Shown here one piece after another: positions 10,216-36,590 of a DNA stretch of 64,000 bases. The stretch is from assembly GCF_003600835.1 (NCBI RefSeq), contig NZ_NQYC01000001.1:2126001-2190000 (forward strand), read 5' to 3'. Numbering within the stretch: the first letter of the stretch is position 1; each line of letters starts with the position of its first letter. The stretch is from Bacillus sp. PK3_68. GTDB lineage: Bacteria > Bacillota > Bacilli > Bacillales > Domibacillaceae. Made by a program: the position numbers and the translations under genes. Below the pieces are notes generated by a model. That model made no database searches and was not told the DNA's origin. It saw nothing but the letters and a program-made list of their open reading frames with translations.

Positions 10216-10361
10216 AAAGTTCACCTGCCTTGTTCATAATATTAAAGCTTCAGAGTGTAGACGAAGTCTATTTTCCATTCTATCAGCTTGTAGCTTGCAA
10301 TAAGCTTTTCTTCTATTCTATTAGATATACAGTGGATTTGCATCTCTTTTCAGTAAAAACC

Positions 10362-10393
10362 AAAAACGGCTATTCCCTAAATTGGAACAGCCG
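10362..10393 (-). terminator. Terminator of the 2-oxoacid dehydrogenase operon
   Basis: A 10-bp stem with one G-U pair (10367-10376 with 10384-10393) and a 7-nt loop is followed on the minus strand by five T. It lies 16 bp past the lipoamide dehydrogenase stop. Confidence 0.85.
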
Positions 10394-10408
10394 CTTATTA
10401 AGCAGTTT

Positions 10409-11824
10409 TTATTTTTTTGGCACCATGTGAATCGCCTGGCCAATAAGGCCTTCAGCCGCTTCAAGCAACCCTTCATTGAAGCTTGGGTGCGCGTAGGCCG
10501 GAAATTTCACATCTTCCTCTTTGGCAGCCATTTCAAGCAATTGGACAAACGTGCTGGATAGCTCAACTGCTCCTTCGCCGATCATGTGAATTCCAAGGAC
10601 GATTTCATTAGAAGCATCAGAAATCACCTTAACAAAGCCATCTTTTTTGCCAGTAATCATTGCATAGCCATTGCCACCAAGGGCAAACTGGCCCACACGA
10701 ATATCTATTCCGAGTTCACGTGCCTGCTGTTCAGTTAAGCCAGCTGAGGCAATCGGCGGAACGGAATGAACGATTGTTGGAAGAAACGTCAAATCGACTT
10801 CCGGCTTGCCGCCAGCAATTGCTTCCACTGCCGCCTTTCCTTGCTTGATCGCTTTCACCGCTAAAAGCGGCCCCTCAGTAACGTCGCCAATCGCATAGAT
10901 GGAAGGAACCGAAGACTGCATGTTTCCATTCACCTTCACAAATCCTTCAGACGTTTGCTCAACACCAAAGCGGTTGATCCCTAAGTCCTGAACGTTTGGC
11001 TGGCGGCTGCCGTCCACAAATAAATGAGAGCCTGTTACTTCTTCTTCTTTTCCGCCGGCAGTAAACATTACGCGTACGCCGTCTTCTGTTTCTTCTGCCG
11101 ACTGAATCACTGCTTCTTTGATCGCTTTGATTTTCTTTTTCTTCAACAATCGGTTCAATTCTTTAGTGATGGACTCATCAAATGGAAAAGCAGCTGCCTG
11201 TTCCAAAAGGATGGTCACCTTAGCTCCTAAAGCGTGAAAACTCGTCGCTACTTCTAAAGAAATATAGTCGTTGCCATAGACGATCAAATGCTCAGGCAGC
11301 TCTTGTAAATCAAACATTTCATGAGAAAGCAAAATGCGCTCGCTATTTTTTCGTAGACCTTGGGGTAAAACTGGCGTACTTCCTGTGGCGATAATCGCTT
11401 GTTTGAACACATAAATATCAAACTGGTGGCCATTTTCGACACCGACACGGTCTTCTGCAATCAAACCTGCTTTTCCTTTTAGCACTTCAACCTTATTGGC
11501 TTTACAAAGAGCTTCCACACCTTTTCTCAATTGTTCAGTCACTTTCGACTTGTAAGAGACCAGCTTTTCTAAATCAAACGTGCCGTCTCCTGTCGGGAGT
11601 CCAAGCTCTTTCATATGAGCCGTTTCCGCCTGCTTTTTCGCAGCATATGTAAATACCTTAGAAGGGATGCACCCTTTATTTAAGCAAACACCGCCGAGAT
11701 CAGCTTGCTCAATTAATGTCACTGGCAAGCCGAGCTGTGCAGCCCGGATCGCTGCACTATAGCCGCCCGGGCCGCCGCCGATAATAATAAGATCTCTTTC
11801 CTGACTGATTTCCCCAACAACCAT
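10409..11824 (-). CDS. lpd: Dihydrolipoamide dehydrogenase (E3)
   Basis: FAD-dependent E3 component that reoxidises the lipoyl group of E2 with NAD. The 471-residue product shows the FAD-binding GGGPGGYSAA motif at the N-terminus, the redox disulfide GGVCLNKGCIPSK near residues 40-52, and the C-terminal HPSFNEGLLEAA dimer-interface/catalytic histidine motif. Its ATG directly abuts the E2 stop codon, so the two are translationally linked. As last gene of the E1-E2-E3 set behind phenylalanine dehydrogenase it is likely dedicated to that complex; sharing with other 2-oxoacid dehydrogenases cannot be excluded. Confidence 0.93.
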   Translation of the reverse strand: MVVGEISQERDLIIIGGGPGGYSAAIRAAQLGLPVTLIEQADLGGVCLNKGCIPSKVFTYAAKKQAETAHMKELGLPTGDGTFDLEKLVSYKSKVTEQLRKGVEALCKANKVEVLKGKAGLIAEDRVGVENGHQFDIYVFKQAIIATGSTPVLPQGLRKNSERILLSHEMFDLQELPEHLIVYGNDYISLEVATSFHALGAKVTILLEQAAAFPFDESITKELNRLLKKKKIKAIKEAVIQSAEETEDGVRVMFTAGGKEEEVTGSHLFVDGSRQPNVQDLGINRFGVEQTSEGFVKVNGNMQSSVPSIYAIGDVTEGPLLAVKAIKQGKAAVEAIAGGKPEVDLTFLPTIVHSVPPIASAGLTEQQARELGIDIRVGQFALGGNGYAMITGKKDGFVKVISDASNEIVLGIHMIGEGAVELSSTFVQLLEMAAKEEDVKFPAYAHPSFNEGLLEAAEGLIGQAIHMVPKK

Positions 11825-13039
11825 TTATATCATCTCCAGCATCAATTTGTTCGGCTGCTCAATTAAGCTGGCAAACCGGTTCGTGAACGCAACAGCGGTT
11901 GCTCCATCAGCGACGCGATGGTCAAATGACATGGATAGTGTCATCATGTGACCAATCACGATTTCATCCTTTTCGTTCACAATCGGTACTTTTTTCGTCT
12001 TATGGAAAGCAATTAATGCTGTTTCTGGATAGTTGATAATCGGCGTCGCACCGATACTGCCGAGCGGTCCAACATTGCTGACAGTAAATGTGCTATTTTG
12101 AATGTCAGCCGGTGCTAATTTTCCGTCTCGTGCTTTCTCATTCAAGCGCTTAATATCATCATGAATCGTTTTGATTGATTTTTTATCGGCATCGTGAACA
12201 ACTGGAACAATTAAGCCATCTTTTGTATCTACAGCCATACCGATGTGATAGTTTTTCTTCAACAAAATCTTTTCATTTTCTTCATCAAGTTCTGCATTGA
12301 ATACCGGAAAGTCTTTTAAAGCGATCACTAGGGCTTTTACGAAAAATGCGGGGACCGATACCGACACACCTGCCGCTTTTAATTCCTCGCGCAGCTTAAG
12401 CAGGTTTGTCATATTCACTTCATCGAAGTGCGTGACGTGCGGAATAGTGAAAAGTGATTTTGTCATCTTTTTCGCAATTTGCTTGCGCATGCCCCGGAAT
12501 GGAATTTCATCAGGCGTTGTTTGTTGTGCGGAGACAGGTGGTTCACTTGGCGAAGCGGCTTCTTGCTGTGGCTGCTGTTCCCCTTTTATGAACCGGTATA
12601 CATCTTCCTCTGTTACCCGGCCCGACGGATCAGATGGTGTCACATCCTCAATATTAATATTGTGATCGCGAGCAATTTTACGTGTATAAGGAGTGGCTAG
12701 TACACGGTTAAAAGAAGCAATAAATGTCTTTTTCTCTTGCTTCTTTTCAGCCTGCGTTTCTGCTTTTTCTGCTGGCTTTGCTTCAGCAGCAGCTGCCGGG
12801 CTGCCCTCTCCTTCAATATAAAGTAGCGTCGTGCCAACCTGGACCGTTGTTCCTGTATCAATAACGATTTCTTTCACTGTACCGGCCCCCGGCGACGGCA
12901 ATTCCGCCACCATCTTATCAGTCTGCACTTCAACAAGCGGCTGGTCAGCCGTTACCCGATCTCCTGGTTTGACAAGATAATGAAGAATTTCGCCTTCTGT
13001 CATCCCTTCTCCAATATCATGAAGTTTCACCTCTAACAC
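11825..13039 (-). CDS. 2-oxoacid dehydrogenase E2, dihydrolipoamide acyltransferase
   Basis: Core E2 subunit that carries the acyl group on lipoyl-lysine and passes it to CoA. The 404-residue product has one lipoyl domain (residues about 1-80, lipoyl lysine in VQTDKMV), a glutamate/alanine-rich linker, a peripheral-subunit-binding domain (TPYTRKIARDHNI...GRVTEEDV) and a catalytic domain ending with the DHRVADG active-site motif. The start is a GTG at 13039 behind AAAGGGGGA; the longer frame to 13090 runs into repeat DNA. The gene is separated from E1-beta by 312 bp holding a terminator-like hairpin and two repeat copies, unusual inside such an operon. The acyl group is probably phenylacetyl and/or branched acyl; this is inference from context. 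Confidence 0.9.
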   Translation of the reverse strand: MLEVKLHDIGEGMTEGEILHYLVKPGDRVTADQPLVEVQTDKMVAELPSPGAGTVKEIVIDTGTTVQVGTTLLYIEGEGSPAAAAEAKPAEKAETQAEKKQEKKTFIASFNRVLATPYTRKIARDHNINIEDVTPSDPSGRVTEEDVYRFIKGEQQPQQEAASPSEPPVSAQQTTPDEIPFRGMRKQIAKKMTKSLFTIPHVTHFDEVNMTNLLKLREELKAAGVSVSVPAFFVKALVIALKDFPVFNAELDEENEKILLKKNYHIGMAVDTKDGLIVPVVHDADKKSIKTIHDDIKRLNEKARDGKLAPADIQNSTFTVSNVGPLGSIGATPIINYPETALIAFHKTKKVPIVNEKDEIVIGHMMTLSMSFDHRVADGATAVAFTNRFASLIEQPNKLMLEMI

Positions 13040-13084
13040 ATCGTTTCCCCCTTTATTTAAAAGTGTAAGGCGTCCGCTTAGCGG

Positions 13085-13298
13085 CGACAAGCATAAGACA
13101 AGCTGGCTAGAAGGCTGCTTTTTTGCCTTCTGGACAGATTGGCTTATGGCCTCGAGCCGCTGACGCCTGAAGCTGGATAGTTATAAAAGTGTGCGCGCCT
13201 GTATTGGCCCGACAAGCACAAAGCAAGCTGACTGGAAGGCTGCTTTTTTGCCTTCTGGACAGACTGGCTTATGACCTCGAGCCGCTGACGCCTGAAGT
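13085..13298 (-). repeat. Two direct copies of an 89-bp interspersed repeat
   Basis: Positions 13085-13173 and 13210-13298 are near-identical 89-bp copies, 125 bp apart, in the E1-beta/E2 gap. Read on the minus strand each starts near TTCAGGCGTCAGCGGCTCGAGG, holds an AAGGC...GCCTT hairpin and ends in GCTTGTCG. The outer blocks (CTATCCAGCT, CTCGAGG, CTTATGCTTGTCGC) are shared with the tandem repeat at 34831-35099, so both belong to one interspersed family. Confidence 0.8.
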
Positions 13299-13340: not shown

Positions 13341-13351
13341 AAGCCGGACAA

Positions 13352-14377
13352 TTAAAAATGAACAACTTTTTCAATACCTTCCAAGACACGTGCCGGCGTT
13401 GGAAGAAAATCCTCTTCAAGAGCGAAGAATGGAACAGGCACATCAAAGCCGGTAACACGCTCAATCGGTGCCCGTAGATATAAGAAAGAGGTATCATTAA
13501 TAATGGAAGCAATGTCATTGCCCAGTCCGCCTGTTGAGTGAGCTTCATGTACGATCACGGCCCTGCCTGTTTTTTGTACAGACTCGGCAATAATGTCACT
13601 GTCGATTGGATAGAGTGTACGCAAATCAATGATTTCACAGCTGATGCCTTTTTTCTCTGCTTGTTCAGCTGCTTTTTCAACGACTGTCATCATCGCTCCC
13701 CAAGCAATTAATGTTACATCTGTTCCTTCTTTTACCTTTTTCCCTTTGCCGATTTCAACTGTGTATTTGCCAGTCGGCACTTCTTCCCTCTTAGCACGAT
13801 AGCTCTTCATCGGCTCCAGCATGAGCACAGGGTCCGGATCTTCCATCGCTGCGATGAGCAATCCTTTTGCATCGTATGGAGTGGACGGACAAACAACTTT
13901 AATTCCCGGCATATGGGTAAACAGTGTTTCTGTGCTATCGGAATGGATCTCCGGCGAGCGGATGCCGGCTCCATATGGCGCACGAATGACCATTGGCACA
14001 GTAAAGTGGCCCATCGTTCTCATTCGAATCCGGGATACATGTGTCATAATTTGTTCGTAAGCCGGATAAATAAAGCCGAGAAACTGAATTTCAGCAATTG
14101 GTTTAAATCCATTTACCGCGAGACCGATGGACGTTCCGATAATACCCGCTTCTGCCAGCGGTGTATCAATCACACGATCAGCACCGAATTTTTCCTGAAG
14201 TCCTTCTGTCGCCCGGAATACTCCGCCGTTTTTTCCGATATCTTCCCCAAGAATCATGACGCTGTCATCTGTTTCAAGCAATGTTTTCATGCCATCATTT
14301 ACAGCCTGCACGATGGTCAAAAACTGAGTAGTCTCTTTCTTTTGCGGTATGTCTCTTACTTCCATTTCCATTGCCAT
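13352..14377 (-). CDS. 2-oxoacid dehydrogenase E1, beta subunit
   Basis: Beta subunit of the thiamine-diphosphate-dependent E1 decarboxylase, forming an alpha2-beta2 enzyme with the preceding gene product. The 341-residue product has the transketolase pyrimidine-domain hallmarks: MILGEDIGKNGGVFRAT near residues 41-57, FGADRVIDTPLAE, and a C-terminal transketolase domain (VIVHEAHSTGGLGNDIAS). It starts one base after the E1-alpha stop behind GGAGGGGG. Length and motifs fit PdhB/BkdAB; which 2-oxoacid is used is inferred only from the neighbouring phenylalanine dehydrogenase. Confidence 0.92.
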   Translation of the reverse strand: MAMEMEVRDIPQKKETTQFLTIVQAVNDGMKTLLETDDSVMILGEDIGKNGGVFRATEGLQEKFGADRVIDTPLAEAGIIGTSIGLAVNGFKPIAEIQFLGFIYPAYEQIMTHVSRIRMRTMGHFTVPMVIRAPYGAGIRSPEIHSDSTETLFTHMPGIKVVCPSTPYDAKGLLIAAMEDPDPVLMLEPMKSYRAKREEVPTGKYTVEIGKGKKVKEGTDVTLIAWGAMMTVVEKAAEQAEKKGISCEIIDLRTLYPIDSDIIAESVQKTGRAVIVHEAHSTGGLGNDIASIINDTSFLYLRAPIERVTGFDVPVPFFALEEDFLPTPARVLEGIEKVVHF

Positions 14378-14378: not shown

Positions 14379-15434
14379 TTACCCCCTCCTCAAATGCGCG
14401 AGATAGGATTCTTTCTGGTCAGCGAGCTGAGCTGGCATTTCCGCATATACATGATCAAACAAATCTTCGACATTGGCCTTCGGATAACTCTCCATTGCTT
14501 CAACAGCCGCTTCTACTTCTGCTTTAATCTTTTCGTCTATTTCAGCGATCCACGCTTCATCCCAGTAACCGTGATTTTTCATGAAGCGCTCCATGCGTAA
14601 GAGCGGTTCTACGATATGCTTGCCCTGGTCTTCCGGACGGTATTTTGTCGGGTCATCAGCCGTGGTGTGCGCGCCTGTGCGCCAAGTTACCGCTTCAATT
14701 AATGTCGGGCCGTTGCCGCTGCGGGCATGATCGAGTGCCTTCTTCACTTCAAAGTAAACAGAGAAACAGTCATTGCCATCAATGCGCACCCCTGGCATTC
14801 CATATGCGACGGCTTTTTGAGCGATCGTTTCGGAATTCATCTGCTTTTCAATTGGCACAGAGATCGCATAACGGTTGTTTTGGTTAAAAAAGATAACCGG
14901 CACTTTAAAGACGCTGGCAAAATTCAGCCCTTCATGGAAATCTCCCTCTGACGTAGCTCCGTCACCAAAGTAGGCGATAGCTGCATTTTTCGTTCCTTTG
15001 CGCTTTTCAGCCCAAGCCGCGCCTGTTGCATGCGGCAGCTGTGTCGCAATCGGTACAGCCGGTGGAAAAATGTTTTTTCCTTCCGGCGGCACGCAGCCTT
15101 CTACCCGTCCATTCCAATAAAGATAAGTTTTAGCCATATCAGCGCCAAAAGTAAGCTTTGCTCCATGGTCACGATAAGTTGGAAACATCCAGTCGTCTTC
15201 GCCAAGTGCCAGCGCACTGCCAACCTGAGAAGCTTCCTGTCCTTCAAATGGTGCATAAGTGCCGAGGCGCCCCTGACGCTGTAAGCTAATCGCTTTTCTA
15301 TCAAACGTTCTAATTCTATACATATGGTAATAAAGCTGCTTTACGAGCTGCTCATCCAGTTGCTCCTGATAAGAAGCATCTACCAAATTTCCTTCATCAT
15401 CAATGATTCTTTTGATTGGATATTGAGTCTCCAT
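14379..15434 (-). CDS. 2-oxoacid dehydrogenase E1, alpha subunit
   Basis: Thiamine-diphosphate-binding alpha subunit that decarboxylates the 2-oxoacid and reductively acylates E2. The 351-residue product carries the cofactor motif GDGATSEGDFHEGLNF...QNNRYAIS (about residues 160-195) and the phosphorylation-loop-like region RTGAHTTADDPTKYR. The sequence is closer to PdhA-type than to BkdAA-type subunits. The ATG at 15434 follows GGGGAGG; an earlier in-frame start at 15473 overlaps the dehydrogenase gene end and has no ribosome site. It lies 20 bp behind phenylalanine dehydrogenase, pointing to phenylpyruvate as a natural substrate. Confidence 0.9.
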   Translation of the reverse strand: METQYPIKRIIDDEGNLVDASYQEQLDEQLVKQLYYHMYRIRTFDRKAISLQRQGRLGTYAPFEGQEASQVGSALALGEDDWMFPTYRDHGAKLTFGADMAKTYLYWNGRVEGCVPPEGKNIFPPAVPIATQLPHATGAAWAEKRKGTKNAAIAYFGDGATSEGDFHEGLNFASVFKVPVIFFNQNNRYAISVPIEKQMNSETIAQKAVAYGMPGVRIDGNDCFSVYFEVKKALDHARSGNGPTLIEAVTWRTGAHTTADDPTKYRPEDQGKHIVEPLLRMERFMKNHGYWDEAWIAEIDEKIKAEVEAAVEAMESYPKANVEDLFDHVYAEMPAQLADQKESYLAHLRRG

Positions 15435-15454
15435 GATAGCCTCCCCGAACAATA

Positions 15455-16597
15455 TTAGTTGCGAATATCCCATTTTGGCTTAACAGAAGAAGTGAAAAAG
15501 CTGTTTCGTCTGCCTCTTGCTGCCATTCTCTGCTCACACATTCTGTTGGCGGCTTCCATTGTTGTTACCCGATCCAGTTCAGCTTGCTGATATACTTCTA
15601 GAATGGCATCATAAATGTGCTTCGTTTTAGCAAGTACACGCTCTTTATTCACCCCGTATAATTCATCTGCTACTTGAATAAGACCGCCGGAGTTAATGAT
15701 GTAGTCTGGAGCGTAAAGGATCCCTTTGTCTGCAAGCTGTCTGCCATGATCTTCCGTCAGCAATTGATTGTTAGCTGAACCAGCGATGGCTTTCACTTTG
15801 AACTGCTTCATCGTTTCATCATTGACGACTCCACCAAAAGCACAAGGAACAAACACATCCGCTTCCTGAGAGTAAATGTCATCGCTGGCTACTACAGTGA
15901 CAGAACCCGGTGTTGATTTTGCTTTTTCCTGGATCGCCTGCAGGCTTTGTTCGTTAATGTCTGTCACAAACAAATCAGCCCCTTCCTCCAGCAAGCCTTC
16001 TGCTACTTTGTAGCCCACTTTGCCAAGCCCTTGAATGGCATAAGTAATGCCACCGAGATCATCTTTGCCAAACAGCATTTTGTTCGTTGCTTTAATTCCG
16101 TACAGAACACCCATCGCCGTTGGAATCGAAGAATCGCCGCCACCGCCATAAGCTTCCGGCACACCGACGATGCAATTGGTTTCTTTCATCGCGTGAATGA
16201 AGTCCTCCATGTTCGTTCCCATATCCGTTCCTGTGTAAAAGCGGCCGCCAAGAGAATCGACGAACTGTCCAAAAGCCCGGAATAATTCAGGGGATTTATC
16301 CTTTTGCGGATCGCCGATAATCACTGCTTTTCCTCCGCCGAAATCTACATCAGAAGCCGCACATTTATAACTCATTCCTTTGGAGAGACGAAGAGCATCT
16401 TCCAGAGCATCCTCTACACTGTTGTACGGCTGCATGCGGCAACCGCCAAGCGCCGGCCCGAGTGTCGTGTCGTGAATCGCGATAATGGCCTTTAACCCTG
16501 TTGCCGGGTCGTTGCAGAAAACAACTTGTTCGTGCTCAGACATTTTGTCAAAAAGTGTGAAATCTTCTGTAATGGAGGTTTTTTTTACTAGACTCAT
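15455..16597 (-). CDS. pdh: Phenylalanine dehydrogenase
   Basis: NAD-dependent oxidative deamination of L-phenylalanine to phenylpyruvate (Glu/Leu/Phe/Val dehydrogenase family). The 380-residue product has substrate lysine K78 and catalytic lysine K90 ([15 protein letters not shown]), D125 ([11 protein letters not shown]) and a GLGKVG dinucleotide fold near 200. From memory it is close to the 380-residue B. badius enzyme over its whole length, including the MSLV start and the C-terminal [11 protein letters not shown]; leucine dehydrogenases differ at TGTDMGTN and the tail. The ATG at 16597 lies 6 bp after AGGGA. It heads the 2-oxoacid dehydrogenase genes and follows an Lrp regulator and an amino acid symporter, all one strand: a phenylalanine catabolism unit. 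Confidence 0.88.
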
Positions 16598-16876
16598 ATT
16601 CAATCCCTGCTTTCATTATGAATAGTTACATCTTCTTATGCGGCCGCGAAAAAAACGCTAGCCTCGTTGTCATTTTTTATTTTTTGTAAGCCCTTTCACA
16701 AAGGCGTCAAACAGCTGATTTATAAACATATTATTTACTTTAATTATAAAAGGTTAAATTACATATATATATATCAATGTGATTGAATTTTCAGACCTTC
16801 ATTTACTTTTCGTATGTATTTTTTATTATTCCTATTCATTTTGTAAAACGCTTTCATTTCCAGAAATGACAGCCAT
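16598..16876 (-). other. Promoter region upstream of phenylalanine dehydrogenase
   Basis: No gene is seen. On the minus strand there is a TTTTATAAT -10-like box near 16757 with no convincing -35 box. Two catabolite-control-like elements lie here: 16685-16698 (13 of 14 against the cre consensus, mismatched in the central CG) and a 15-base variant around 16842-16856 starting TGAAAGCG. An AT-dinucleotide run lies at 16761-16775. Confidence 0.5.
16685..16698 (-). promoter_or_regulatory. Weak candidate cre site upstream of pdh
   Basis: TGAAAGGGCTTACA on the minus strand fits TGWAANCGNTNWCA at 13 of 14 positions, but the miss is in the conserved central CG, so binding by CcpA is uncertain. Confidence 0.35.
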
Positions 16877-16962: not shown

Positions 16963-17418
16963 TTACGGCCATTCCTGTTCGTCGTCCGAGGGCAAAATAA
17001 TCTTTTCAGGAACCGGGGACTTCAGTACGATGGACGTATGAATAATGCCGTATCGGATTAAATAATCAATCAGCTTATTCAAATGCTCCATATCGTTGAC
17101 CGCTGCTTTTAATAAGTAATTGACTGTGCCGGTCAAACGGTGACACTCGATAATATCCGGGTGTTCAAGCGTCATTTGTTCAAATTCATCATAAGGAACT
17201 CTTACCTCACTCACCTGGATAAATAAAAGAATGTTGCGGCCGACAGCATTGGGAGATACTCTTGCGCTTATCTTGTCTATCACCCCTTTTTCCATTAGCC
17301 TCGTAAATCGTTCGGCTACGCTTGGCCGACTAAGGGATAACTTCTTCGATAGATCGCTTAATGTAATTCTTCCGTCCTCTTGAAGAATTTTCAAAAGTTG
17401 AATATCTGTCTCATCCAT
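16963..17418 (-). CDS. Lrp/AsnC-family regulator
   Basis: Feast/famine transcription regulator that usually responds to an amino acid. The 151-residue product has an N-terminal winged HTH (MDETDIQLLKILQEDGR...SLSRPSVAERFTRLMEKGVI, residues 1-48) and a C-terminal RAM ligand domain containing HRLTGTVNYLLKAAV. It lies between the amino acid symporter and phenylalanine dehydrogenase on the same strand, so phenylalanine is the likely effector and the flanking genes the likely targets; both are inference. A perfect 12-bp palindrome lies just upstream of its ribosome site. Confidence 0.88.
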   Translation of the reverse strand: MDETDIQLLKILQEDGRITLSDLSKKLSLSRPSVAERFTRLMEKGVIDKISARVSPNAVGRNILLFIQVSEVRVPYDEFEQMTLEHPDIIECHRLTGTVNYLLKAAVNDMEHLNKLIDYLIRYGIIHTSIVLKSPVPEKIILPSDDEQEWP

Positions 17419-17483: not shown

Positions 17484-18827
17484 TTAAATGATGCCGAGCA
17501 CATCCAAGTAAACAATGATAATAGCAATTGGCGCTAAATATTTAATTAATAAGAACCAAGCTGAGAAAATCTTCTTTCCGATAGATGACCCCGAAGAAAT
17601 CTCTTCCAACAATCTTTGCTTCGGAATCTTTAACGGAACAAAAATAGCAATTAACAAAGCGCCGAGCGGCATTAGCAAGTTGCTGACGAGAAAGTCGGCT
17701 GCATCAAAAATTGATTTATTAAAAATTAATACATCACTCCACACGCCAAAAGACAAAGCGGACGGAACACCGACGATAAAAATAAGCATTCCAATAATCC
17801 AAGAAAATTTCATACGCTTGCTGTCATTCCCTTTTGCCAACACAGCGACGATAATTTCCAGCATGGAAAAGGCTGATGTTAATGTTGCAAATAAAAATAG
17901 AACTAAAAAGGCAATTAGAAAGACTACGCCAAATGGAATTTGGTTAAAGACCGTCGGCAATACGTTAAACAGTAAAACTGGACCTGCATCCGGCTTTAAT
18001 CCGAATGAGAAAACAGCTGGGAAAATAGCCAGTCCCGCTAAAATAGCGACGAGCAGGTTCAATACAACAATGGAAATAGCCGACTGCGGGATGCTTTCTT
18101 TTTTAGATAAGTAGGAGCTGTATGTGACCATGACTGATACCCCAACACTTAGCGCAAAGAAAGACTGTCCCATCGCAAACAAAATCGTTTCCGATGTAAT
18201 CTTTGATAGATCAGGCTTCAAGAAAAACTCAATGCCTTCCATCGATCCGTCTAGTGTGACAGAGCGTATAATGATAAGCAAGAATAAAATAAATAAAGCA
18301 GGCATCATAAACTGGCTGGCCTTTTCAATTCCTGCTGTTACTCCTTTAGAGACAACATAAATGGTAATGACCATAAAGAGAAACTGAGCAAAGACAGCCA
18401 AGAATGGACTGGAAATCGTTTCTCCAAATAAAGAACCATACTGGGCTTCTGTCAATCCACTTAAATCTCCAGTCAATCCTTTAAAAATATAAATTAATAT
18501 CCAGCCGCCTACCACGCTATAAAACGATAATAAAACGAAGCATGTGAAGATGCCGAGTCTGCCAATAAAATGCCAGGACGAATTCGGCGCCAGCTCCTTA
18601 TATGATTCAATTGCATCTTTTTGCGTACTTCTGCCGACAATAAATTCCCCGATTAAAAGCGGCAGTCCGACAAGAAGCGTAAAGAGGATAAAAATTAAAA
18701 GAAAAATTCCTCCCCCACTCGTTCCAGCTACATAAGGGAATTTCCAGATGGCACCAAGCCCAATAGCTGAACCTGCGGCTGCCAAAATGAACCCTAGCTT
18801 AGACGACCATTGTTCTTTTTGTTCCAT
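17484..18827 (-). CDS. Sodium-dependent amino acid symporter (NSS/SNF family)
   Basis: Membrane symporter of the neurotransmitter:sodium symporter family that imports amino acids with Na+. The 447-residue product has about eleven to twelve hydrophobic segments, starts with [31 protein letters not shown] (the unwound TM1 substrate/Na+ site, key residues A, G, L, G, N/K-F-P), and matches the 11-12-TM bacterial subset that includes tryptophan- and tyrosine-type transporters. Next to Lrp and phenylalanine dehydrogenase genes, aromatic amino acid uptake is the simplest role. A near-consensus cre site lies 30 bp upstream of its start. Confidence 0.88.
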
Positions 18828-20102: not shown

Positions 20103-20184
20103 TTTTTCTCCTCCTCTTAAAAGAAATGTTATAATAAATAAAAAAGAAAAACAATTGCGTAAATTCATATTTGGAGGGTATGTC

Positions 20185-21675: not shown

Positions 21676-21731
21676 CTCTCCCACTCTTTCTTCTTTGATC
21701 GTCGTTGCATCACTTTCCTTTGATTCTCTTA

Positions 21732-24802: not shown

Positions 24803-24872
24803 GTTGTTCTCCCCCTTATGCGTGAAAACGGACAAGAGGCCTGAATGCCACCTGTCCGTCTTCATCAATAAA

Positions 24873-26390: not shown

Positions 26391-26404
26391 AGGTTCCACT
26401 CCCT

Positions 26405-27178: not shown

Positions 27179-27191
27179 TCGACAAAGCCCC

Positions 27192-27968: not shown

Positions 27969-28273
27969 TCTACTTCCTCACCGATCATTAATGTAACGAG
28001 ATCACCTGCAAATCCCATTAAATCTTTTCCAGAAGCTTTTCCTTCATCTGAGCGCATGCCATTCTTTAAATCTTCCATGCTATCGTAAATCATTTCGCAC
28101 ATCAGATAATATTCTGCTTCTCCGCCTGTCATAACGGATTTATTAAATTTTGTTACTTTCATTTCACGAAGGCCCGGAATTTTTGCTGTAATCGGTCCAT
28201 GAACATTAAAATAATGCTCGTCGAATGTTTCTTTATCTTTTGGTTGCTTATATAAAGCTACTACTTTTGCCAC
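27965..28273 (-). CDS. EthD-family dimeric alpha/beta-barrel protein
   Basis: Small (102-residue) protein of the EthD family, whose members adopt a ferredoxin-like dimeric barrel as in muconolactone isomerases and monooxygenase accessory proteins. The family pattern is visible as VALYKQPKDKETFDEHYFNVHGPITAKIPG near the N-terminus and a C-terminal FAGDLVTLMIGEE. The start is a GTG at 28273 behind GGAGGGATG. It is tightly packed between paaD and paaF (4-bp overlap), so it belongs to the paa transcript; its job there is not established and it is not among the classical paa genes. Confidence 0.8.
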   Translation of the reverse strand: MAKVVALYKQPKDKETFDEHYFNVHGPITAKIPGLREMKVTKFNKSVMTGGEAEYYLMCEMIYDSMEDLKNGMRSDEGKASGKDLMGFAGDLVTLMIGEEVE

Positions 28274-28290
28274 TGTACATCCCTCCACTT

Positions 28291-28791
28291 TTACATCATT
28301 GTTGAAACAGGCTTCATTGCCTCAAACGGATTTTTACAGCTCTTACAATATAAGATGCTTCTGCAGGCCGTCGGTCCGAAAATGTTCTCCATTGTGACAT
28401 AAGTAGACCCGCAATACGGGCAATCTACATGCCACGAACCATCTTCTTCAAAGTGCTTGGGCGGCGGGGCAATCCCGAACGCACGCAGGCCTTTATGACC
28501 TTCTTCTGTAATACGATCCGACGTCCATGGCGGATGAAAAACAAATTCTACGTCTACTTCTTCAACGAAAGAAAGTTCTTTCACAGCGCTGACTGTGTTC
28601 TTTTTAATAATTTCAAGTGCTGGACATCCTAAGAATGTTGGTAGAAGAACCACTTTTACATGACTTCCTTCAGCGCTGACTTCCTTTACCATACCGAGAT
28701 CAATAATGCTAACTGTGTCGATCTCTGGATCTTTCACATTTGTTAGTGCCTCATATACTTGCTGACCAGCAGATTCTATAGGTGTATTCAT
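28291..28791 (-). CDS. paaD: Phenylacetyl-CoA epoxidase assembly subunit PaaD
   Basis: MIP18/DUF59-type protein needed for maturation of the PaaABC monooxygenase, probably of its metal centre. The 166-residue product has an N-terminal DUF59 domain (VYEALTNVKDPEIDTVSIIDLGMV, then FLGCPALEIIKK) and a C-terminal zinc knuckle (CPYCGS...CRSILYCKSCKNPFEAMKP). The ATG at 28791 follows GAGGTGG. It lies between paaC and the EthD-like gene. Confidence 0.92.
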   Translation of the reverse strand: MNTPIESAGQQVYEALTNVKDPEIDTVSIIDLGMVKEVSAEGSHVKVVLLPTFLGCPALEIIKKNTVSAVKELSFVEEVDVEFVFHPPWTSDRITEEGHKGLRAFGIAPPPKHFEEDGSWHVDCPYCGSTYVTMENIFGPTACRSILYCKSCKNPFEAMKPVSTMM

Positions 28792-28817
28792 TAAGGCCAC
28801 CTCTTTTCGGTATTAAA

Positions 28818-29633
28818 TTACCAAGCAGCTGCAGGGTCTAGTCTGTATACTTCAGAAAGAGTCGCCAGTGCTGCTGTTAAGTCTTCTGTATGTTCGCCAT
28901 TCCGGCCATTTTTAGCTGGTGTTTCAGGAATTACAGGCACTGCCATTCCAAGAGATTCAAAGACTGGCGCCATGTTCGCTTTCCATTTATCTTTCAATTC
29001 TTCTTCGCTAGCCATCAGATTGTTGCTTTCAATAGCCGCTTTCTTATTACCATACGAGAAAACATCTCCAAAATCCTTCATTACCATTTCAATAGCGTCG
29101 TTCATTTTTTGTTTCGCTTCATCTGTTGAGCTTAACAATTGAACAAACCATGTTTTCCAGTGCAGCAAGTGATAGTAAAGTTCCATGTTCACTTTCACGG
29201 CTGTTTCCGCAAGCGGTTGGTAAGAGCTTTGACGCAAAGAGTCAATTTTCACTTTTTTTGCTTGAGCATAAAAGAAATTTCTAACGACAGCATACGCCCA
29301 ATCGTACTGAGGCGTCTCCATGTAATAACCTTCACCGTTCACACGTTCAGCAAGCACGCTGTTTTTTCTTTCCTGAGCCGGACGCAGATGAGCAAGGTCA
29401 TCCGCTTTTCCTGCCTCTAGTTCCTCAAGGAGAGAGTAATACATTGCCGCATGCCCCATTGTATCTTGGCTGATGGATGAGGAAGCAACGTCTTCCTCGA
29501 TATGAGGAGCGAGCCCGAGCCATTCAGAGCCGCGGAAGGAAATTAAGAAGTCGTCATCTGCCAGTTGAAATAACAGATTCGTTACTGCTTCTTTATATTC
29601 CGGGCTTAATACGTTGTTTTCTGTGCTGCTCAT
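28818..29633 (-). CDS. paaC: Phenylacetyl-CoA epoxidase structural subunit PaaC
   Basis: Non-catalytic ferritin-like partner of PaaA in the phenylacetyl-CoA 1,2-epoxidase. The 271-residue product is helical, with ADDDFLISFRGSEWLGLAP, QDTMGHAAMYYSLLEEL and VNMELYYHLLHWKTWF blocks in the places of the four-helix bundle of PaaC proteins. The ATG at 29633 overlaps the paaB stop by 4 bp and is preceded by GGGGAGGAG. Confidence 0.9.
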   Translation of the reverse strand: MSSTENNVLSPEYKEAVTNLLFQLADDDFLISFRGSEWLGLAPHIEEDVASSSISQDTMGHAAMYYSLLEELEAGKADDLAHLRPAQERKNSVLAERVNGEGYYMETPQYDWAYAVVRNFFYAQAKKVKIDSLRQSSYQPLAETAVKVNMELYYHLLHWKTWFVQLLSSTDEAKQKMNDAIEMVMKDFGDVFSYGNKKAAIESNNLMASEEELKDKWKANMAPVFESLGMAVPVIPETPAKNGRNGEHTEDLTAALATLSEVYRLDPAAAW

Positions 29634-29974
29634 TTGCCGTCTCCTCCCCATGACAAGATTTCTTTTTCATCCAGCATTTGCTGTTCATAATGACGCCACT
29701 TTTTCTTTAAGTAACCATACCCTTTTGTCGTGCGGTACTGCTTATTATCTAACCGGCCAAGTGTTAATTTTTCCTCTGCATCCATTGACCGAATATGTTT
29801 TCTATTGACGATCCAAATGTCGGCAACCGGCTCGCGACGCATAAAGTTCTCTTGAGCCATGATAAGCGCCATGTCTTCGTTCGGGGCAAGCAGGCTGAAC
29901 TGATGCTGAAATGCAGAGCTCGGCGTCCGCTTGCTGAATACTTCATATTCTTGGTAAAATGTTTTTTCTGCCAT
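29630..29974 (-). CDS. paaB: Phenylacetyl-CoA epoxidase subunit PaaB
   Basis: Small subunit bridging PaaAC heterodimers of the epoxidase. The 114-residue product has the PaaB pattern YQEYEVFSKRTPSSAFQHQFSL and NFMRREPVADIWIVNR, with a charged C-terminal extension slightly longer than the ~95-residue E. coli protein. An AGAAGGAAA ribosome site precedes the ATG at 29974; 25 bp separate it from paaA. Confidence 0.92.
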   Translation of the reverse strand: MAEKTFYQEYEVFSKRTPSSAFQHQFSLLAPNEDMALIMAQENFMRREPVADIWIVNRKHIRSMDAEEKLTLGRLDNKQYRTTKGYGYLKKKWRHYEQQMLDEKEILSWGGDGK

Positions 29975-31433: not shown

Positions 31434-32435
31434 TTATTTTGCATCTCCCATTACAGACGTACTATGTAACGGCTGTACTTTCGCTTTTGGATCAATGTAT
31501 ACTTTCGCGTTGCTGACAGCCGTCGGCGCTTCGCCGAAGCCGCTCGCAATCAGCTTCACCTTTCCTTCATACGTACAAATATCTCCCGCTGCGTAAATCC
31601 CCGGGATGTTCGTTTCCATCCGAGAATTGACGACGATGCTGTTCTTCTCAATGTCTAGTCCCCAGTTTTTAATGGGACCGAGGGAAGAAACAAATCCGTA
31701 AGTAACGACAACGTCATCGACCTCGATCACCTCTTGCTGTTCCCCTTTCACTTCTTGGAGAATGACCTGTTCGATTCTCTCTTCCCCAACAAGTTCAGTC
31801 GGCACAAATGGCGTTTTGATATTGACTGAAGAATTCTTCATCGTTTCCACACTGTGCTCGTGGGCACGGAATTTATCGCGGCGGTGGGCAATGGTCACCT
31901 GCTCGGCGATCGGCTCCAGCATCAGCGCCCAGTCCACCGCCGAGTCGCCGCCACCGAAGACCTGTACTTTCTTTCCGGCAAACTGGTTCAGGTCGTTGAT
32001 AAAATAGTGAAGGTTCTTTCCTTCGTATTTTTCCGAGCCGGCAAGCTCCAGCTTTCTCGGCTGGAACGCCCCGTTCCCTGCTGTAATAATCACTGTTTTC
32101 GTATAGTGCGTACCCGCATTCGTTGTCAGCTTGAACGTACCATCTTCCTGCTTTTCCAGTCCTTCGACTGCTTCCTCGAGGCAGACGGTCGGATCAAACT
32201 GATTCATTTGCTCTTTTAAATTATCGACAAGCTCCTGAGCTCTCACTTTAGGAAAGCCGGCTACGTCATAAATGTATTTTTCCGGGTAAAGGGCCGACAG
32301 CTGGCCGCCTAGCTGCGGCAAGCTTTCAATGATCTTGCAAGACATCTGTCTCATTCCCGCATAGAAAGCGGTGAATAATCCTACTGGCCCTCCCCCGATA
32401 ATCGTGATGTCAAAAACTTGCTGGTTGTCAGACAT
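31434..32435 (-). CDS. Ferredoxin-NADP reductase, thioredoxin-reductase-like (YumC type)
   Basis: FAD enzyme that moves electrons from NADPH to ferredoxin. The 333-residue product has the FAD motif [16 protein letters not shown], an NAD(P) motif [15 protein letters not shown] near residues 155-169 and the C-terminal AAGDICTY...[10 protein letters not shown] block; it lacks the CxxC active site of true thioredoxin reductases, as expected for this class. AAGGAGG precedes the ATG. It lies between paaK and the ferredoxin gene on the same strand. Confidence 0.9.
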
Positions 32436-32470: not shown

Positions 32471-33799
32471 TTATACGCCGACCGTGTCGGAATTTCTCAA
32501 ATCAACGATTCGGATTGCTTTTCCTTCTGACCTTGGAATCGCTTTAGGGATATTAAAGATTGTATTCATTGACACCAAACAGGTGGATTTCATCAAATGC
32601 TGGATTTCTTTTTTCATTTGCTGAATGCGCAAGTGGGACAAATCTTCTCCGATTTCTCGATACAATTCGCTCTCCACTTCTACATGAAGTTCTACGCCAT
32701 CCATTGTGCCTTTTCTAACAAGGTGAATTTGATAATGCGGCACAAGGCCTTCAATTTGCAAAAGGACACGTTCGATTTCAGATGGGAAAACATTAACGCC
32801 ACGAATAATGAGCATGTCATCTGTACGCCCTTTTACTCTAGACATTCTCACTGTTGTCCGTCCACATTTGCAGGTTTCTCTTGTAATGGATGCAAGGTCA
32901 CCCGTACGGTATCGGATAATCGGAAACGCTTCCTTCGTTAAGCTCGTAAAGACAAGCTCACCGATTTCCCCTTCAGCAACCGGCTCAAGCGTATCTGGAT
33001 TAATTACTTCAACGAAAAAATGGTCCTCTTGAACGTGCAAACCATCTTGTGCTTCATAACATTCAATAGACACGCCAGGCCCCATAATTTCGCTCAAGCC
33101 GTAAATATCAACCGCTTTCAAATTTAACGTTTCTTCGAGCTTAGTACGCATTTCTTCAGACCATGGCTCCGCACCAAAAATACCATATTCAATCGATGTA
33201 TCTCTTGGGTCCTTGCCCATTTCCTGCATTTTTTCAGCAATATTTAAAATGTAAGAAGGCGTACCGCAAATGCCTCTTGGCTTAAAGTCTTCAATGACTG
33301 TAATTTGTCTTTCTGTGTTTCCTCCTGAAATAGGAACAACAGCTGCCCCAAGAGCTTCCGCCCCGTAATGTAGACCAAGACCGCCAGTGAACAAGCCATA
33401 GCCATAAGCGTTATGAAAAATGTCTGATTTCTTTCCGCCTGCCGCTACAATGGAACGGGCTACTACTTCACTCCACACGTTAATGTCATTCTGTGTATAG
33501 CCAACGACAGTCGGTTTTCCGCTTGTACCGGAAGATCCATGAATGCGAACAACTTCTTCCTGCGGAACAGCAAATAAACCAAATGGATAATTATCGCGTA
33601 AATCTTGTTTTTTTGTAAATGGCAGCTTAACAATATCATCTAAGCTTTTAATATCTTCCGGAGTGATCCCTAATTCTTCAAATTTCTTTTTATAGAATTC
33701 AACATTCTCATATACTCTTTCGACTGTTTTTTGAAGGCGTCCAAGCTGTAAACTCTCCATTTCAGAACGCGCCATTGTTTCAATTTGCGGATTATACAT
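32471..33799 (-). CDS. paaK: Phenylacetate-CoA ligase
   Basis: AMP-forming ligase that activates phenylacetate to phenylacetyl-CoA. The 442-residue product has the P-loop-like [17 protein letters not shown] (about residues 85-101), [10 protein letters not shown], and YRTGDLASI with a CKCGRT zinc-like segment and C-terminal domain typical of PaaK (E. coli PaaK is 437). The start is the ATG at 33799 behind TTGGAGGG; the frame reaches 33862 without a site. It heads a likely paaK-reductase-ferredoxin transcript; a perfect cre-like sequence lies upstream. Confidence 0.93.
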
Positions 33800-34252
33800 T
33801 GTGTAGCCCTCCAATTGCATAATATATAGCCTTTGTTTGAAAAATCCTTCTCGAAAACTCATAACGATTTTAATACGATGATTGGAATAATAGTAATATG
33901 TTTAAATTTTAAAATTTACGCAGCTTGTTGTCAATGATAATTTCTGAAAATTCATATTTGAACCTCTCATTTGTATATTCGTTTCATTCAGTTTTGTTAT
34001 CGTTTTCAATCCTCCTCTTAAAGCGGCCCACATTAAGACAGAATAGTTCGAACTTTCGATTTACATAACGAGAAGGCTATGGTACTTTTATCTAAAGAAT
34101 TTATAAGCCATTACTGGTTTAGCGTTTTAAAATCGTATGATGCTATTTTTCTAGATCATCCATCTATTCCTTACATAGCGCTTTTTACTCAAGTGAAGCG
34201 TTAAAGCGGGAGGGCAGAACCAATTTAGAAAATTCACGGGAAGGTGATTAAA
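33800..34252. other. Divergent control region between paaK and paaI
   Basis: About 450 bp without a gene. It contains a full-consensus cre-like site (33995-34008) and an ATAACG element (33859-33870) loosely like the paaA/paaX 12-mer. No convincing -35/-10 pair was found by eye for either gene. Confidence 0.5.
33995..34008. promoter_or_regulatory. Candidate cre site between paaK and paaI
   Basis: TGTTATCGTTTTCA, which reads TGAAAACGATAACA on the minus strand, fits TGWAANCGNTNWCA at all 14 positions. It is the best of the three cre-like sites in the catabolic island. Confidence 0.65.
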
Positions 34253-34705
34253 TTGACTAGACAACTAGACGAGCAAGAAATCCATGCTGAACACTATGAC
34301 CAGATTGTCGAAACATTCAAGCAGGAGCCGTACGCCAATCACTTAGGTATTCAGTTAACTGCGCTTGGCAAAGGAACCGCTTCGGCTGAAATGCAAATTG
34401 AAGACTATATGTTGAACTCTCATGGAACTGTTCATGGTGCTGTTATGTTCGCCATTGCGGATTACGTATTTGCAGCAGCAAGCAATTCTTATGGGAAAGT
34501 CTCTGTCGGCTTATCCACCAATATGAATTTTATGGCTCCTGGCCGCAAAGGAGCCACTTTAACTGCTACAGCCGTTGAAGAAAAGAAAACCCGGCGCATC
34601 GCATGGTATCGAATCACTGTTGAAAGTGAAGGAAATCTTCTTGCAACAATGGAAGCCACCGTGTATAGAAAAGACCAATACTTTGTCCCGGTGGATGAAT
34701 CTTAA
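34253..34705 (+). CDS. paaI: Hotdog-fold thioesterase PaaI
   Basis: Acyl-CoA thioesterase thought to release CoA from dead-end ring-hydroxylated phenylacetyl-CoA species. The 150-residue product has the hotdog motif HGTVHGAVMFAIADYVFA with the conserved histidine and aspartate, then STNMNFMAPGRKG. The start is either the TTG at 34253 (AAGGTGAT at 5 bp, preferred) or a GTG at 34244. It is divergent from paaK and followed by its own terminator. Confidence 0.88.
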   Translation: MTRQLDEQEIHAEHYDQIVETFKQEPYANHLGIQLTALGKGTASAEMQIEDYMLNSHGTVHGAVMFAIADYVFAAASNSYGKVSVGLSTNMNFMAPGRKGATLTATAVEEKKTRRIAWYRITVESEGNLLATMEATVYRKDQYFVPVDES

Positions 34706-34830: not shown

Positions 34831-35099
34831 CAGGCGGCTTCGCTTTTATTCTATCCAGCTCCGCCTCCTTGGAGCTCGAGGTCATATGCCGACCTGGTTG
34901 TGTGGCTGAGGAACGCCACTTCACCATTTCGTCTTATGCTTGTCGCTCCAGTGCAGGCGGCTTCGCTTTTATTCTATCCAGCTCTGCCTTCTTGGAGCTC
35001 GAGGTCATATGCCCGACCTGGTTGTGTAGCTGAGGAACGCCACTTCACCATTTCGTCTTATGCTTGTCGCTCCAGTGCAGGCGGCTTCGCTTTTATTCT
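34831..35099 (+). repeat. Tandem repeat, 2.2 copies of a 123/124-bp unit
   Basis: Unit one 34831-34953, unit two 34954-35077, and 22 bases of a third at 35078-35099 that stop at the luxS stop codon. The two full units differ at only a few positions. Each holds CTATCCAGCT, CTCGAGGTCAT and CTTATGCTTGTCGC blocks also found in the 13085-13298 repeats. No coding potential or transposase is seen. Confidence 0.85.
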
Positions 35100-35569
35100 T
35101 AAAATACTTCCGTCCACTCTTCGCGTTTTGATAGCATATACCGGGCAAGTTCTTTTGCTCCTTCAAGGCTGTGGCTAGCCGCCCATCCGCATTGCACTTC
35201 GTTGCAGGCAGGAACTTCTGTTGCTTCGAGTACATCTTTTAATGTGGCTTCTACAATGCGCAAAATGTCATCAAAATCTTCGTGGTTAATGACGGATAAG
35301 TAATAGCCTGTCTGACATCCCATCGGACTAATGTCTACAATTTTATCCGAATGGTTGCGGCTGAATTCCGCCATCATATGCTCGAGGGAATGAATGGCAG
35401 GCATGTCCATATGTTCTTTATTTGGCTGGGAAAAGCGCAGATCATATTTGTAAATTTGATCTCCATTGATCCCTTCTTTTTTGCCAGCAAGCCGAATATA
35501 AGGTGCTTTTACTTTCGTATGGTCAAGGTTAAAGCTTTCTACGTTCATCTGTTTTTGTTCTGCCATCAT
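35099..35569 (-). CDS. luxS: S-ribosylhomocysteine lyase LuxS
   Basis: Cleaves S-ribosylhomocysteine to homocysteine and the autoinducer-2 precursor DPD. The 156-residue product has zinc ligands H60 and H64 (HSLEH) and C127 (QCGW), and catalytic C85 (MGCQTGYY). AGGAG precedes tandem ATGs at 35569. The stop codon abuts the tandem repeat, leaving no obvious terminator. Confidence 0.95.
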
Positions 35570-35626
35570 GATCGCTCCTTTATCAGAAAGTTAACTCTAT
35601 TATATCAGTTCTCCTGAACATTTGGA

Positions 35627-36184
35627 CTATTTCATCGCAGATAAAGCGGTTTGTTTCCAACCGTCTTTCTCTTTATTAAACTTCATCACTTGCCGCGTCG
35701 TTTCTGCGACTTCCTTTCCTGTCTGCAAATCTTTTGTGACAGATTTCATTGCCACGAATATATAAGCCTCTTTTTTCTTATCATCATACTTAATGATAGC
35801 TGTATGTTGAGGTTCCATTTTTGCATCAAATGTATCAAATACCTTTTTCACGTAAAGACGCTCTTCCTCATAATTGCGTTCTGTATTTTTAGAAATGGTC
35901 TCCATATATGCATCGAGATCTTTTCCGTTAAAGGCATCTACGTGCTGGGCAAGCGTCTTCATTAACTCCTCTTTTTCTTTTGGAGGCACATTATCTACAT
36001 CTTCAATTGGCTGAGTCACGACAGGCTGTTTCGTTTCCTCAGGCTGATCAGCTGCCGGCTTAGGGTCTTCTGCTGCTTGTGGTTGATCTGCCTTTTCTTT
36101 CTTTGCCTCTTCATCACCACATCCAGCCAAGAGAATCCCGGCCAGCAAAGCAGGCACCATTAATCTTCGTATCAACGTCTTCAC
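35627..36184 (-). CDS. Secreted lipoprotein, function unknown
   Basis: A 185-residue predicted lipoprotein with lipobox LLAGC near residue 22, a ~50-residue proline/glutamate/aspartate-rich linker, and a C-terminal domain (about 70-185) whose pattern HVDAFNGKDLDAYMETI recalls NTF2/SnoaL-like folds. No catalytic residues can be named. The GTG at 36184 is very close to its AAAGGA site; a TTG at 36175 has better spacing, so the first few residues are uncertain. Confidence 0.75.
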   Translation of the reverse strand: MKTLIRRLMVPALLAGILLAGCGDEEAKKEKADQPQAAEDPKPAADQPEETKQPVVTQPIEDVDNVPPKEKEELMKTLAQHVDAFNGKDLDAYMETISKNTERNYEEERLYVKKVFDTFDAKMEPQHTAIIKYDDKKKEAYIFVAMKSVTKDLQTGKEVAETTRQVMKFNKEKDGWKQTALSAMK

Positions 36185-36554
36185 GTCCTTTCTGCCCTAT
36201 TGTATGTCAAGTTGCCCTTTTTCCTCAACTGCTGAACATAGAAAAAATTAGCGAATTGCGTGGGCAGGAGGAATGGCACTTCGAAGCTTGATTACTGATT
36301 AAAGCACCGACCGGCTACTTGCCGGGCATCCGAACGGTGCTTGCTGATCAATGCGGGCAAGTATCCTTCATAGAAATAAGGATCGGTCAGGCCGCCAAAG
36401 AGGCACCCCTGGATGCTGACGCACCGCCTCTCCTTCAGAACCCATCTGCCAGCCTCTCATTTGCTCCCCCTGCACAGTGTTTTTTCCCCTTAATCGAAAA
36501 CTCCTTATATGATGTGTAATGGCCTAGCTAAGTACCGCTAAAACCTTCCACACT
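36185..36554 (-). other. Structured leader-like region upstream of the lipoprotein gene
   Basis: About 370 bp without a listed gene. A two-tier hairpin lies at 36302-36342 (AAGCACCG pairing with CGGTGCTT, and CCGGC with GCCGG inside). On the minus strand a 30-codon frame at 36368-36460 begins with ATG behind GGGGGAG and ends before the hairpin. The layout resembles a leader peptide plus regulatory RNA, but no known class was recognised. Confidence 0.35.
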
Positions 36555-36586
36555 AAAAAAGCAGCAGGCATGACTACCTGCTGCTT
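36555..36586 (-). terminator. Terminator of degU
   Basis: A perfect 10-bp stem (36559-36568 with 36577-36586), 8-nt loop and six T on the minus strand, just past the degU stop. Confidence 0.88.
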
Positions 36587-36590
36587 CCAT

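Follow-up and report, generated by a model that had tools for sequence, protein, structure and literature searches.

A conserved, probable phenylalanine catabolic cluster with a third 2-oxoacid dehydrogenase complex in the degU-degV interval of Bacillus sp. PK3_68

In a 64,000-nucleotide stretch of Bacillus sp. PK3_68 (contig NZ_NQYC01000001.1; here the window, G000:C1:2126001-2190000, where G000 is its genome of 4.83 Mb on two contigs), 24 kb of phenylalanine-catabolic genes separate degV and degU. The cluster is real, coherent and conserved, and it is more widespread than an earlier note on this DNA assumed. We consider it likely that phenylalanine catabolism is self-contained at this locus, where a third 2-oxoacid dehydrogenase complex would oxidatively decarboxylate phenylpyruvate to phenylacetyl-CoA. 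The interest of the locus lies in this overlooked complex and in an apparently PaaE-less Paa epoxidase rather than in the insertion itself; the complex stands at the centre because it would make the ligase PaaK unnecessary for phenylalanine.

Results

A coherent pathway between degV and degU

Every gene that the earlier note had named, from degV to degU, lies where that note had put it, and the gene content supports its view of a single coherent pathway in this interval, from phenylalanine uptake and deamination through beta-oxidation (Table 1). The complex is encoded in full, with E1α, E1β, a three-domain E2 and E3 together, and PaaK, PaaA-D, PaaX, PaaJ and LuxS all score above curated NCBIfam cut-offs. 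The gene list itself needed amendment: paaH is broken, a ferredoxin, a ferredoxin-NADP reductase (FNR) and an EthD-like protein had been missed, and PaaE was not found. On the degV flank, the open reading frame (ORF) at 4662-6032 showed helicase domains and nothing more specific; its name comFA comes from the earlier note and from position. Gene content, gene order, conservation, the E1 clade and the Phe-to-Thr difference described below were observed directly.

In the pathway that we propose, the Na+ symporter would import phenylalanine, and phenylalanine dehydrogenase (PheDH) would deaminate it, giving phenylpyruvate. Phenylpyruvate would be oxidatively decarboxylated to phenylacetyl-CoA by the third E1/E2/E3 complex, which is neither pyruvate dehydrogenase (PDH) nor branched-chain 2-oxoacid dehydrogenase (BKD). 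PaaABC(D) would then epoxidise the ring, with electrons probably drawn from the adjacent ferredoxin and FNR instead of PaaE, and PaaG, the crotonases, the aldehyde dehydrogenase, PaaJ and PaaH would carry the product to acetyl-CoA and succinyl-CoA. PaaK would handle free phenylacetate, and control would lie with PaaX and perhaps CcpA. The substrate of the complex, the electron route and the regulation are the parts of this scheme that we infer.

Table 1 Features of the degU-degV interval and its borders (positions in the window)
Feature	Position	Strand	Remark
degV (EDD/FakB-type), left interval border	9364..10224	-	TIGR00762 336.7 bits, cut-off 99.7
E3 dihydrolipoyl dehydrogenase, third complex	10409..11824	-	TIGR01350 421.6 bits, cut-off 408.8
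E2 dihydrolipoyl acyltransferase (lipoyl, E3-binding, catalytic domains)	11825..13090	-	
E1β, third complex	13352..14377	-	
E1α, third complex, Thr72	14379..15473	-	TIGR03181 479.6 bits, cut-off 411.35
Phenylalanine dehydrogenase (PheDH)	15455..16603	-	PF02812 and PF00208 above cut-off
cre-like palindrome upstream of pheDH, 1 mismatch	16685..16698	.	kept in 5/5 family members with the cluster there
Lrp/AsnC-type regulator	16963..17418	-	
Na+-dependent symporter (SNF)	17484..18827	-	closest solved structure 4us3
Perfect cre-like site upstream of symporter	18857..18870	-	
FabK/nitronate-monooxygenase-like flavoprotein	19128..20186	-	in 23/25 Paa gene sets
PaaY-like hexapeptide protein	20155..20703	+	
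PaaX repressor	20797..21684	-	TIGR02277 above cut-off
Crotonase Ech1 (PaaF candidate)	21758..22534	-	
PaaJ 3-oxoadipyl-CoA thiolase	22729..23934	-	TIGR02430 above cut-off
paaH, frame broken into two ORFs (24305-24868, 23931-24470)	23931..24868	-	
Aldehyde dehydrogenase (PaaZ-type oxidation step)	24873..26399	-	PF00171 alone, no hydratase domain
PaaG-type isomerase	26405..27235	-	TIGR02280 best match, below cut-off
Crotonase Ech2 (candidate oxepin-CoA hydrolase or PaaF)	27192..27968	-	
EthD-like small protein	27965..28288	-	TIGR02118, PF07110; in 25/25 Paa gene sets
PaaD	28291..28800	-	TIGR02159 above cut-off
PaaC	28818..29651	-	TIGR02158 above cut-off
PaaB	29630..29974	-	TIGR02157 above cut-off
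PaaA	30000..31040	-	TIGR02156 above cut-off
4Fe-4S ferredoxin, 79 aa	31155..31394	-	PF13370
Ferredoxin-NADP reductase (FNR)	31434..32435	-	solved relatives 6gas, 3lzw
PaaK phenylacetate-CoA ligase	32471..33862	-	TIGR02155 652.7 bits, cut-off 646.3
Perfect cre-like site upstream of paaK	33995..34008	-	not kept in G002, G006
PaaI-like hotdog thioesterase	34244..34705	+	TIGR02286 best match, below cut-off
LuxS	35099..35569	-	usual occupant of interval in family
Lipoprotein-like ORF, no family match	35627..36184	-	usual occupant of interval in family
degU (response regulator, LuxR-type domain), right border	36591..37271	-	name by position
degS	37297-38454		PF05384
yvyE	38886-39527		TIGR00257

A third complex, separate from PDH and BKD

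Elsewhere in G000 there is a PDH operon, and at 1.11 Mb an ELFV (leucine-dehydrogenase-like) gene adjoins a BKD-like operon, which owes its name to context and whose E1α falls below the PDH cut-off. In a tree of 47 E1α rows, the cluster E1α formed one clade of 26 rows (97/90), distinct from those of PDH with 11 rows (100/100) and BKD with six (98/96). It grouped neither with Bacillus PDH nor with BKD-type E1α, and the fork that joins its clade to PDH is weakly supported (90/67).

The clade also differs at one residue of the pocket. At residue 72, the 26 clade rows and 11/11 further rows (37 rows together) have Thr without exception, and 12/12 PDH-type, 6/6 BKD-type and 1/1 acetoin-type rows have Phe. 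This residue aligns with Phe85α of human BCKD (E1b), as Tyr100 does with Tyr113, and a passage of a docking study gives Phe85, Met87, Tyr113, Met146 and Leu164 of chain α as the residues that bind the branched side chain (PMC12655727). A residue smaller than Phe at this position would suit a phenyl ring. The linkage to PheDH described below and this pocket are our reasons for naming phenylpyruvate as the substrate, from which the complex would probably make phenylacetyl-CoA directly, without PaaK.

The neighbouring dehydrogenase is predicted to deaminate phenylalanine in an NAD-dependent reaction. Its pocket motifs read FYTGTDMGT and GGLIQV, and those of the leucine dehydrogenase (LeuDH)-like protein of the BKD-like locus YITAEDVGT and GGVINV, so that Gly and Leu stand where the LeuDH-like protein has Ala and Val. 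Mutant work on the B. sphaericus enzymes reportedly found this replacement, of Ala and Val in LeuDH by Gly and Leu in PheDH, in the pocket for the side chain.

A second cluster-type E1α/E1β/E2 set was seen elsewhere in G000, at 7852-13948 of locus L067 (G000:C1:2022000-2041999). Its neighbours are an NhaC-type antiporter and a PheDH-like gene that is broken. The counterpart of this broken gene in G001 is an open PheDH-like copy, 65%, at C11:24758-25861.

PheDH, the complex and the Paa genes are linked across the order

We compared G000 with 60 relatives. PaaA matched at E ≤0.001 in 27 of these 61 genomes, 25 times at 66% or more; the other two matches are 32% paralogues. We then tallied the genes in stretches fetched from the 25 Paa genomes, where some misses are contig ends or genes lying elsewhere. 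All 25 sets hold PaaA, PaaB, PaaC and EthD, 24 hold PaaD and PaaG, 23 the FabK-like gene, PaaY and PaaX, and 22 the aldehyde dehydrogenase and Ech2; PaaJ, PaaH, E1α and E1β were each found in 21, PheDH in 20, PaaK in 18 and Ech1 in 15. In G038 and G039 the complex lies with an ELFV dehydrogenase on other contigs than the Paa set. The earlier note had named scattered genes in close relatives as a finding that would refute it, and this does not hold: three relatives of the same genus (G001-G003) keep the gene order. Some other families have the Paa genes apart from PheDH and the complex, for example 189 kb away in G059. The FabK/nitronate-monooxygenase-like gene and paaY form a near-constant pair (19128-20703 in the window, and in relatives), which in G059 stays with PheDH and the complex.

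The same linkage appears in an order-wide survey of 299 genomes, drawn evenly. Cluster-type E1α was present in 123, PheDH in 116, PaaA in 125 and all three in 107; five genomes with weaker E1α matches of 48-51% (G030, G087, G096, G263 and G284) were excluded from the cluster-type count. The E1α and PheDH genes start within 2 kb of each other in 100 of the 107 genomes holding both, and PheDH and PaaA lie on one contig in 95 of 108 genomes, within 25 kb in 89. Fisher tests of co-occurrence gave p <1e-50, values that ignore kinship, and so are no true probabilities, and that depend on thresholds of our own choosing. The exceptions comprise 16 genomes with E1α and no PheDH, nine with PheDH and no E1α, nine with PaaA and no E1α, and seven with E1α and no PaaA.

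One scan of named genome contigs gave 38 loci. E1α adjoins PheDH in all 20 named Bacilli loci (68-97%), and none of the 18 other loci (42-51%) has the complex. Paa genes lie within the fetched flank of 19/20 of the Bacilli loci, the exception (L105) being a short contig. The linkage is not special to the degU-degV locus; the position alone is lineage-specific.

The neighbours of the complex and of PheDH change where one of the two is missing. We examined 14 of the 16 genomes with E1α and no PheDH (G082 and G117 were left out). In all seven that lack both PheDH and PaaA, a class I/II aminotransferase lies about 3 kb or less from the complex; two of these enzymes are HisC-like by NCBIfam, and the rest share 60-65% identity with one of that pair. 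In the remainder we saw a class IV aminotransferase (G058, G251), a HisC-type gene a few kb off (G203, G292), an ELFV dehydrogenase (G038, G039) or no such neighbour (G228). Conversely, six of the nine genomes with PheDH and no E1α were examined (G126, G148 and G153 were left out). All six lack PaaA, and in each a 4-hydroxyphenylpyruvate dioxygenase gene lies about 6 kb or less from PheDH (the family model was run on two). Both exchanges of neighbours are compatible with a common intermediate that is an aromatic 2-oxo acid.

Which 2-oxo acid does the complex use?

Several observations count against phenylpyruvate as the dedicated substrate and against a closed phenylalanine pathway. TIGR03181, named as PDH E1α, is passed both by the cluster E1α and by G000's own PDH E1α at 3.99 Mb, so this model cannot separate the two. 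Thr at residue 72 also occurs in three E1α rows outside the clade. PaaA is missing from 7/123 genomes with E1α, and E1α from 9/125 genomes with PaaA, including the family members G007 and G013. PaaK is present at 61% or more in 24 of the 25 Paa genomes, and the complex is therefore usually no replacement for it. Finally, we found no PaaX-type operator common to the promoters of paa and pheDH.

Since E1α and PaaA sometimes occur apart, the complex may have further 2-oxo acids among its substrates. It could be broad on aromatic or bulky 2-oxo acids (phenyl-, 4-hydroxyphenyl- and indolepyruvate), phenylpyruvate being one of several, which we judge rather unlikely while giving it real weight. The second E1α/E1β/E2 set at G000:C1:2029857 by its broken PheDH-like gene and antiporter, the aminotransferase-linked copies without Paa, and the 4-hydroxyphenylpyruvate dioxygenase and aminotransferase that adjoin the complex in G026, G033, G050 and G052 all speak for such breadth. 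The strong association with PaaA (116 of the 123 E1α genomes), whose known substrate is phenylacetyl-CoA, speaks for phenylpyruvate.

It is improbable, in our estimate, that G000 has in this complex a second pyruvate (or branched-chain) dehydrogenase and breaks phenylpyruvate down by decarboxylation and oxidation to phenylacetate, with PaaK then activating the product. The NCBIfam name, assigned above cut-off, and the near-universal PaaK agree with this, as does a passage of an Exiguobacterium paper in which the PDH next to PheDH yields phenylacetate (PMC2615787). However, both a PDH operon and a BKD-like operon are already present in G000, the cluster E1α forms its own clade with Thr for Phe in the pocket, and the complex is coupled to PheDH or to aminotransferases.

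A complex that replaces PaaK as a general rule was considered and rejected on the 24/25 genomes that retain the ligase. The sole Paa genome in which no PaaK was found (E ≤1e-40) is G058, where the complex adjoins the Paa genes. PaaK and the complex thus mostly coexist, and we propose that PaaK serves free phenylacetate and the complex phenylalanine.

An epoxidase for which no PaaE was found

The best PaaE model score in G000 was 118.6 bits against a cut-off of 420.8; none of 14 control genomes passed either, so the search had no positive control. In seven gene sets, which are exactly the family members with Paa, a ferredoxin gene and an FNR gene lie between paaA and paaK. G000 has six FNR-type genes at E ≤1e-60, the cluster copy included, for which reason a role of the pair in the epoxidase is only plausible. 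In other families, 16 of the 18 Paa genomes have an FNR gene of 67-80% identity outside the cluster; G026 has distant ones only and G039 none at E ≤1e-60. The ferredoxin/FNR pair is positioned as a PaaE substitute in the window's family. A second FNR copy in G000 (G000:C1:1827386-1828375) is 97% identical to that of the cluster and looks recently duplicated.

According to the passages seen of two papers, Bacilli have almost only partial epoxidase sets (PMC13186573), and EthD has been proposed as a ferredoxin-associated reductase (PMC9416434).

The paaH gene, broken in G000, is one ORF with both motifs in 20/20 relatives' sets that have it, and is absent from four; in L100, L102 and L103, where the motif pattern was missed, both halves lie in one frame with no stop. 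The break in G000 is due either to faulty sequencing or to a recent loss of the gene.

cre-like sites

We scanned for cre-like sites with the cre consensus. The window holds two perfect sites, one upstream of the symporter and one upstream of paaK, where 0.26 are expected, yet two or more occurred in 5/100 shuffles. The symporter site is kept in 5/5 family members whose cluster lies between degU and degV (with one mismatch in G006). Among 21 stretches upstream of pheDH, five have a perfect site (G012, G035, G046, G052, G057), five a one-mismatch site, these being the five family members, and 11 none. The paaK site is perfect in G000, perfect in G001 at another place and in the other orientation, has one mismatch in G003 and is missing from G002 and G006; the G035 row was left out as a contig-edge artefact. 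These sites are suggestive of CcpA control.

The degU-degV interval is a variable slot

DegS-DegV spacing was compiled for 57 genomes, 53 of which have both on one contig; the other four of the 61 (G023, G037, G038, G057) were omitted, the partner being absent or weakly matched. The gap is at most 1.6 kb, space for degU and little more, in 18/31 genomes of other families, and 2.2-30 kb in all 22 members of the window's family. We read the interval content in 16 of these members. The lipoprotein occurs in 16/16 and luxS in 15/16 (no match in G011). The phenylalanine cluster was found in five (G000-G003, G006), which makes 5/22 of the family members whose DegS and DegV genes share a contig. Of the seven genomes of genus g2 that we read, six (G004, G008, G010, G012, G020, G022) have another E1α/E1β/E2 set there, which is presumably acetoin-type; the nearest model to the G008 E1α is TIGR03182, below cut-off. 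The slot seems to attract E1α/E1β/E2 operons in genus g2.

Because contents differ among the family members read, the family has a variable slot at degU-degV, and one of its contents is the phenylalanine cluster. The earlier note had described an insertion between degU and degV and had suggested comparing the interval across genomes. That description holds for the window's lineage, although other parts of the order have the cluster at different sites and the PheDH-complex-Paa linkage is wider than the locus. An assembly join, which the note had named as a finding that would refute its reading, is excluded by four relatives (G001, G002, G003, G006) that have the cluster at the identical site.

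We likewise give little credence to a recent horizontal acquisition placed between degU and degV: the position is confined to 5/22 family members, and Rummeliibacillus stabekisii (L100), which has no degV within 10 kb on that side, shares the Lrp-symporter order and a PheDH 88% identical to that of the window, but GC content is close to that of the window outside the island, the window is without a tRNA gene, and two genera have the cluster with DegS-like divergence (DegS 95-81%, PheDH 97-85% for G001-G003 and G006). In detail, PheDH is 97% identical to the window copy in G003, 95% in G002, 91% in G001 and 85% in G006, which is of another genus of the family. The GC comparison that the earlier note had proposed gave 44.6% for the island and 43.0% for the remainder of the window, so that composition gives no hint of a recent import, and with no tRNA gene in the window a tRNA-linked insertion is unsupported. 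In L100 the order Lrp-symporter-FabK-PaaY-PaaX is as in the window, a possible transfer between lineages.

Other features of the window

A search for Rfam elements gave none at gathering score. Two tandem-duplicated non-coding repeats with a period of about 125 bp lie in the E2-E1β gap (13085-13324) and in the paaI-luxS gap (34828-35099). Both seem to have a common CTCGAGGTCATA-like core, perhaps that of a dispersed intergenic element. Three 204-nt direct repeats (50072-50701; 75-76% to the reference) lie within a 607-aa ORF at 49700-51523.

Discussion

If the proposed pathway is right, it gives Bacillus phenylalanine dehydrogenases a natural role and context, and it corrects a 'pyruvate dehydrogenase' annotation that is likely misleading. 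It would also provide a ligase-free entry to the phenylacetyl-CoA pathway, in which ATP is saved and free phenylacetaldehyde avoided, and it makes testable how Bacilli reduce PaaABC. A more general extension can be advanced tentatively: Bacillales may possess a distinct family of aromatic 2-oxo acid dehydrogenase complexes, marked by the Phe-to-Thr pocket, that would free phenylalanine breakdown from PaaK and ATP, and a PaaE-less Paa epoxidase that would use ferredoxin/FNR and need the EthD-like protein as a constant partner.

Searches of the open-licence PMC literature did not turn up the order-wide linkage, the separate E1 clade or the Phe-to-Thr difference. A close precedent in its organisation is the Bacillus bcd-bkd operon, which pairs leucine dehydrogenase with the branched-chain 2-oxoacid dehydrogenase. 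There, too, an amino acid dehydrogenase adjoins its own E1/E2/E3 complex, and G000 has a bcd-bkd-like set as well, whereas the window locus has PheDH and a third E1 clade and would send its product into the Paa pathway.

For the PheDH-complex-paa cluster itself, the same literature yielded one description, a passage of a 2008 paper in which the PheDH of Exiguobacterium sibiricum adjoins a 'pyruvate dehydrogenase' suggested to act on phenylpyruvate (PMC2615787). It differs from our account in that the passage concerns one genome, gives phenylacetate as the product and contains no analysis of clade, pocket or conservation. The paa cluster of Exiguobacterium sp. RIT 594 contains an EthD-family gene, as in the window, and the genes listed in the passage seen name no PaaE; that passage makes no cross-genome comparison (PMC9416434). 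The same conversion as ours, phenylpyruvate to phenylacetyl-CoA, has been suggested for the pyruvate-dehydrogenase-like PglB/PglC of Streptomyces pristinaespiralis (PMC7089894); there it is biosynthetic (phenylglycine), and the likeness is in the suggested reaction.

The Paa genes resemble those of E. coli and Pseudomonas in that the window has PaaABCD, G, J, K, X, Y and I and a broken H. They differ in the aldehyde dehydrogenase without a hydratase domain, in the EthD-like protein and in the ferredoxin and FNR where PaaE was not found, and the pathway in the window is coupled to PheDH and a 2-oxoacid dehydrogenase complex.

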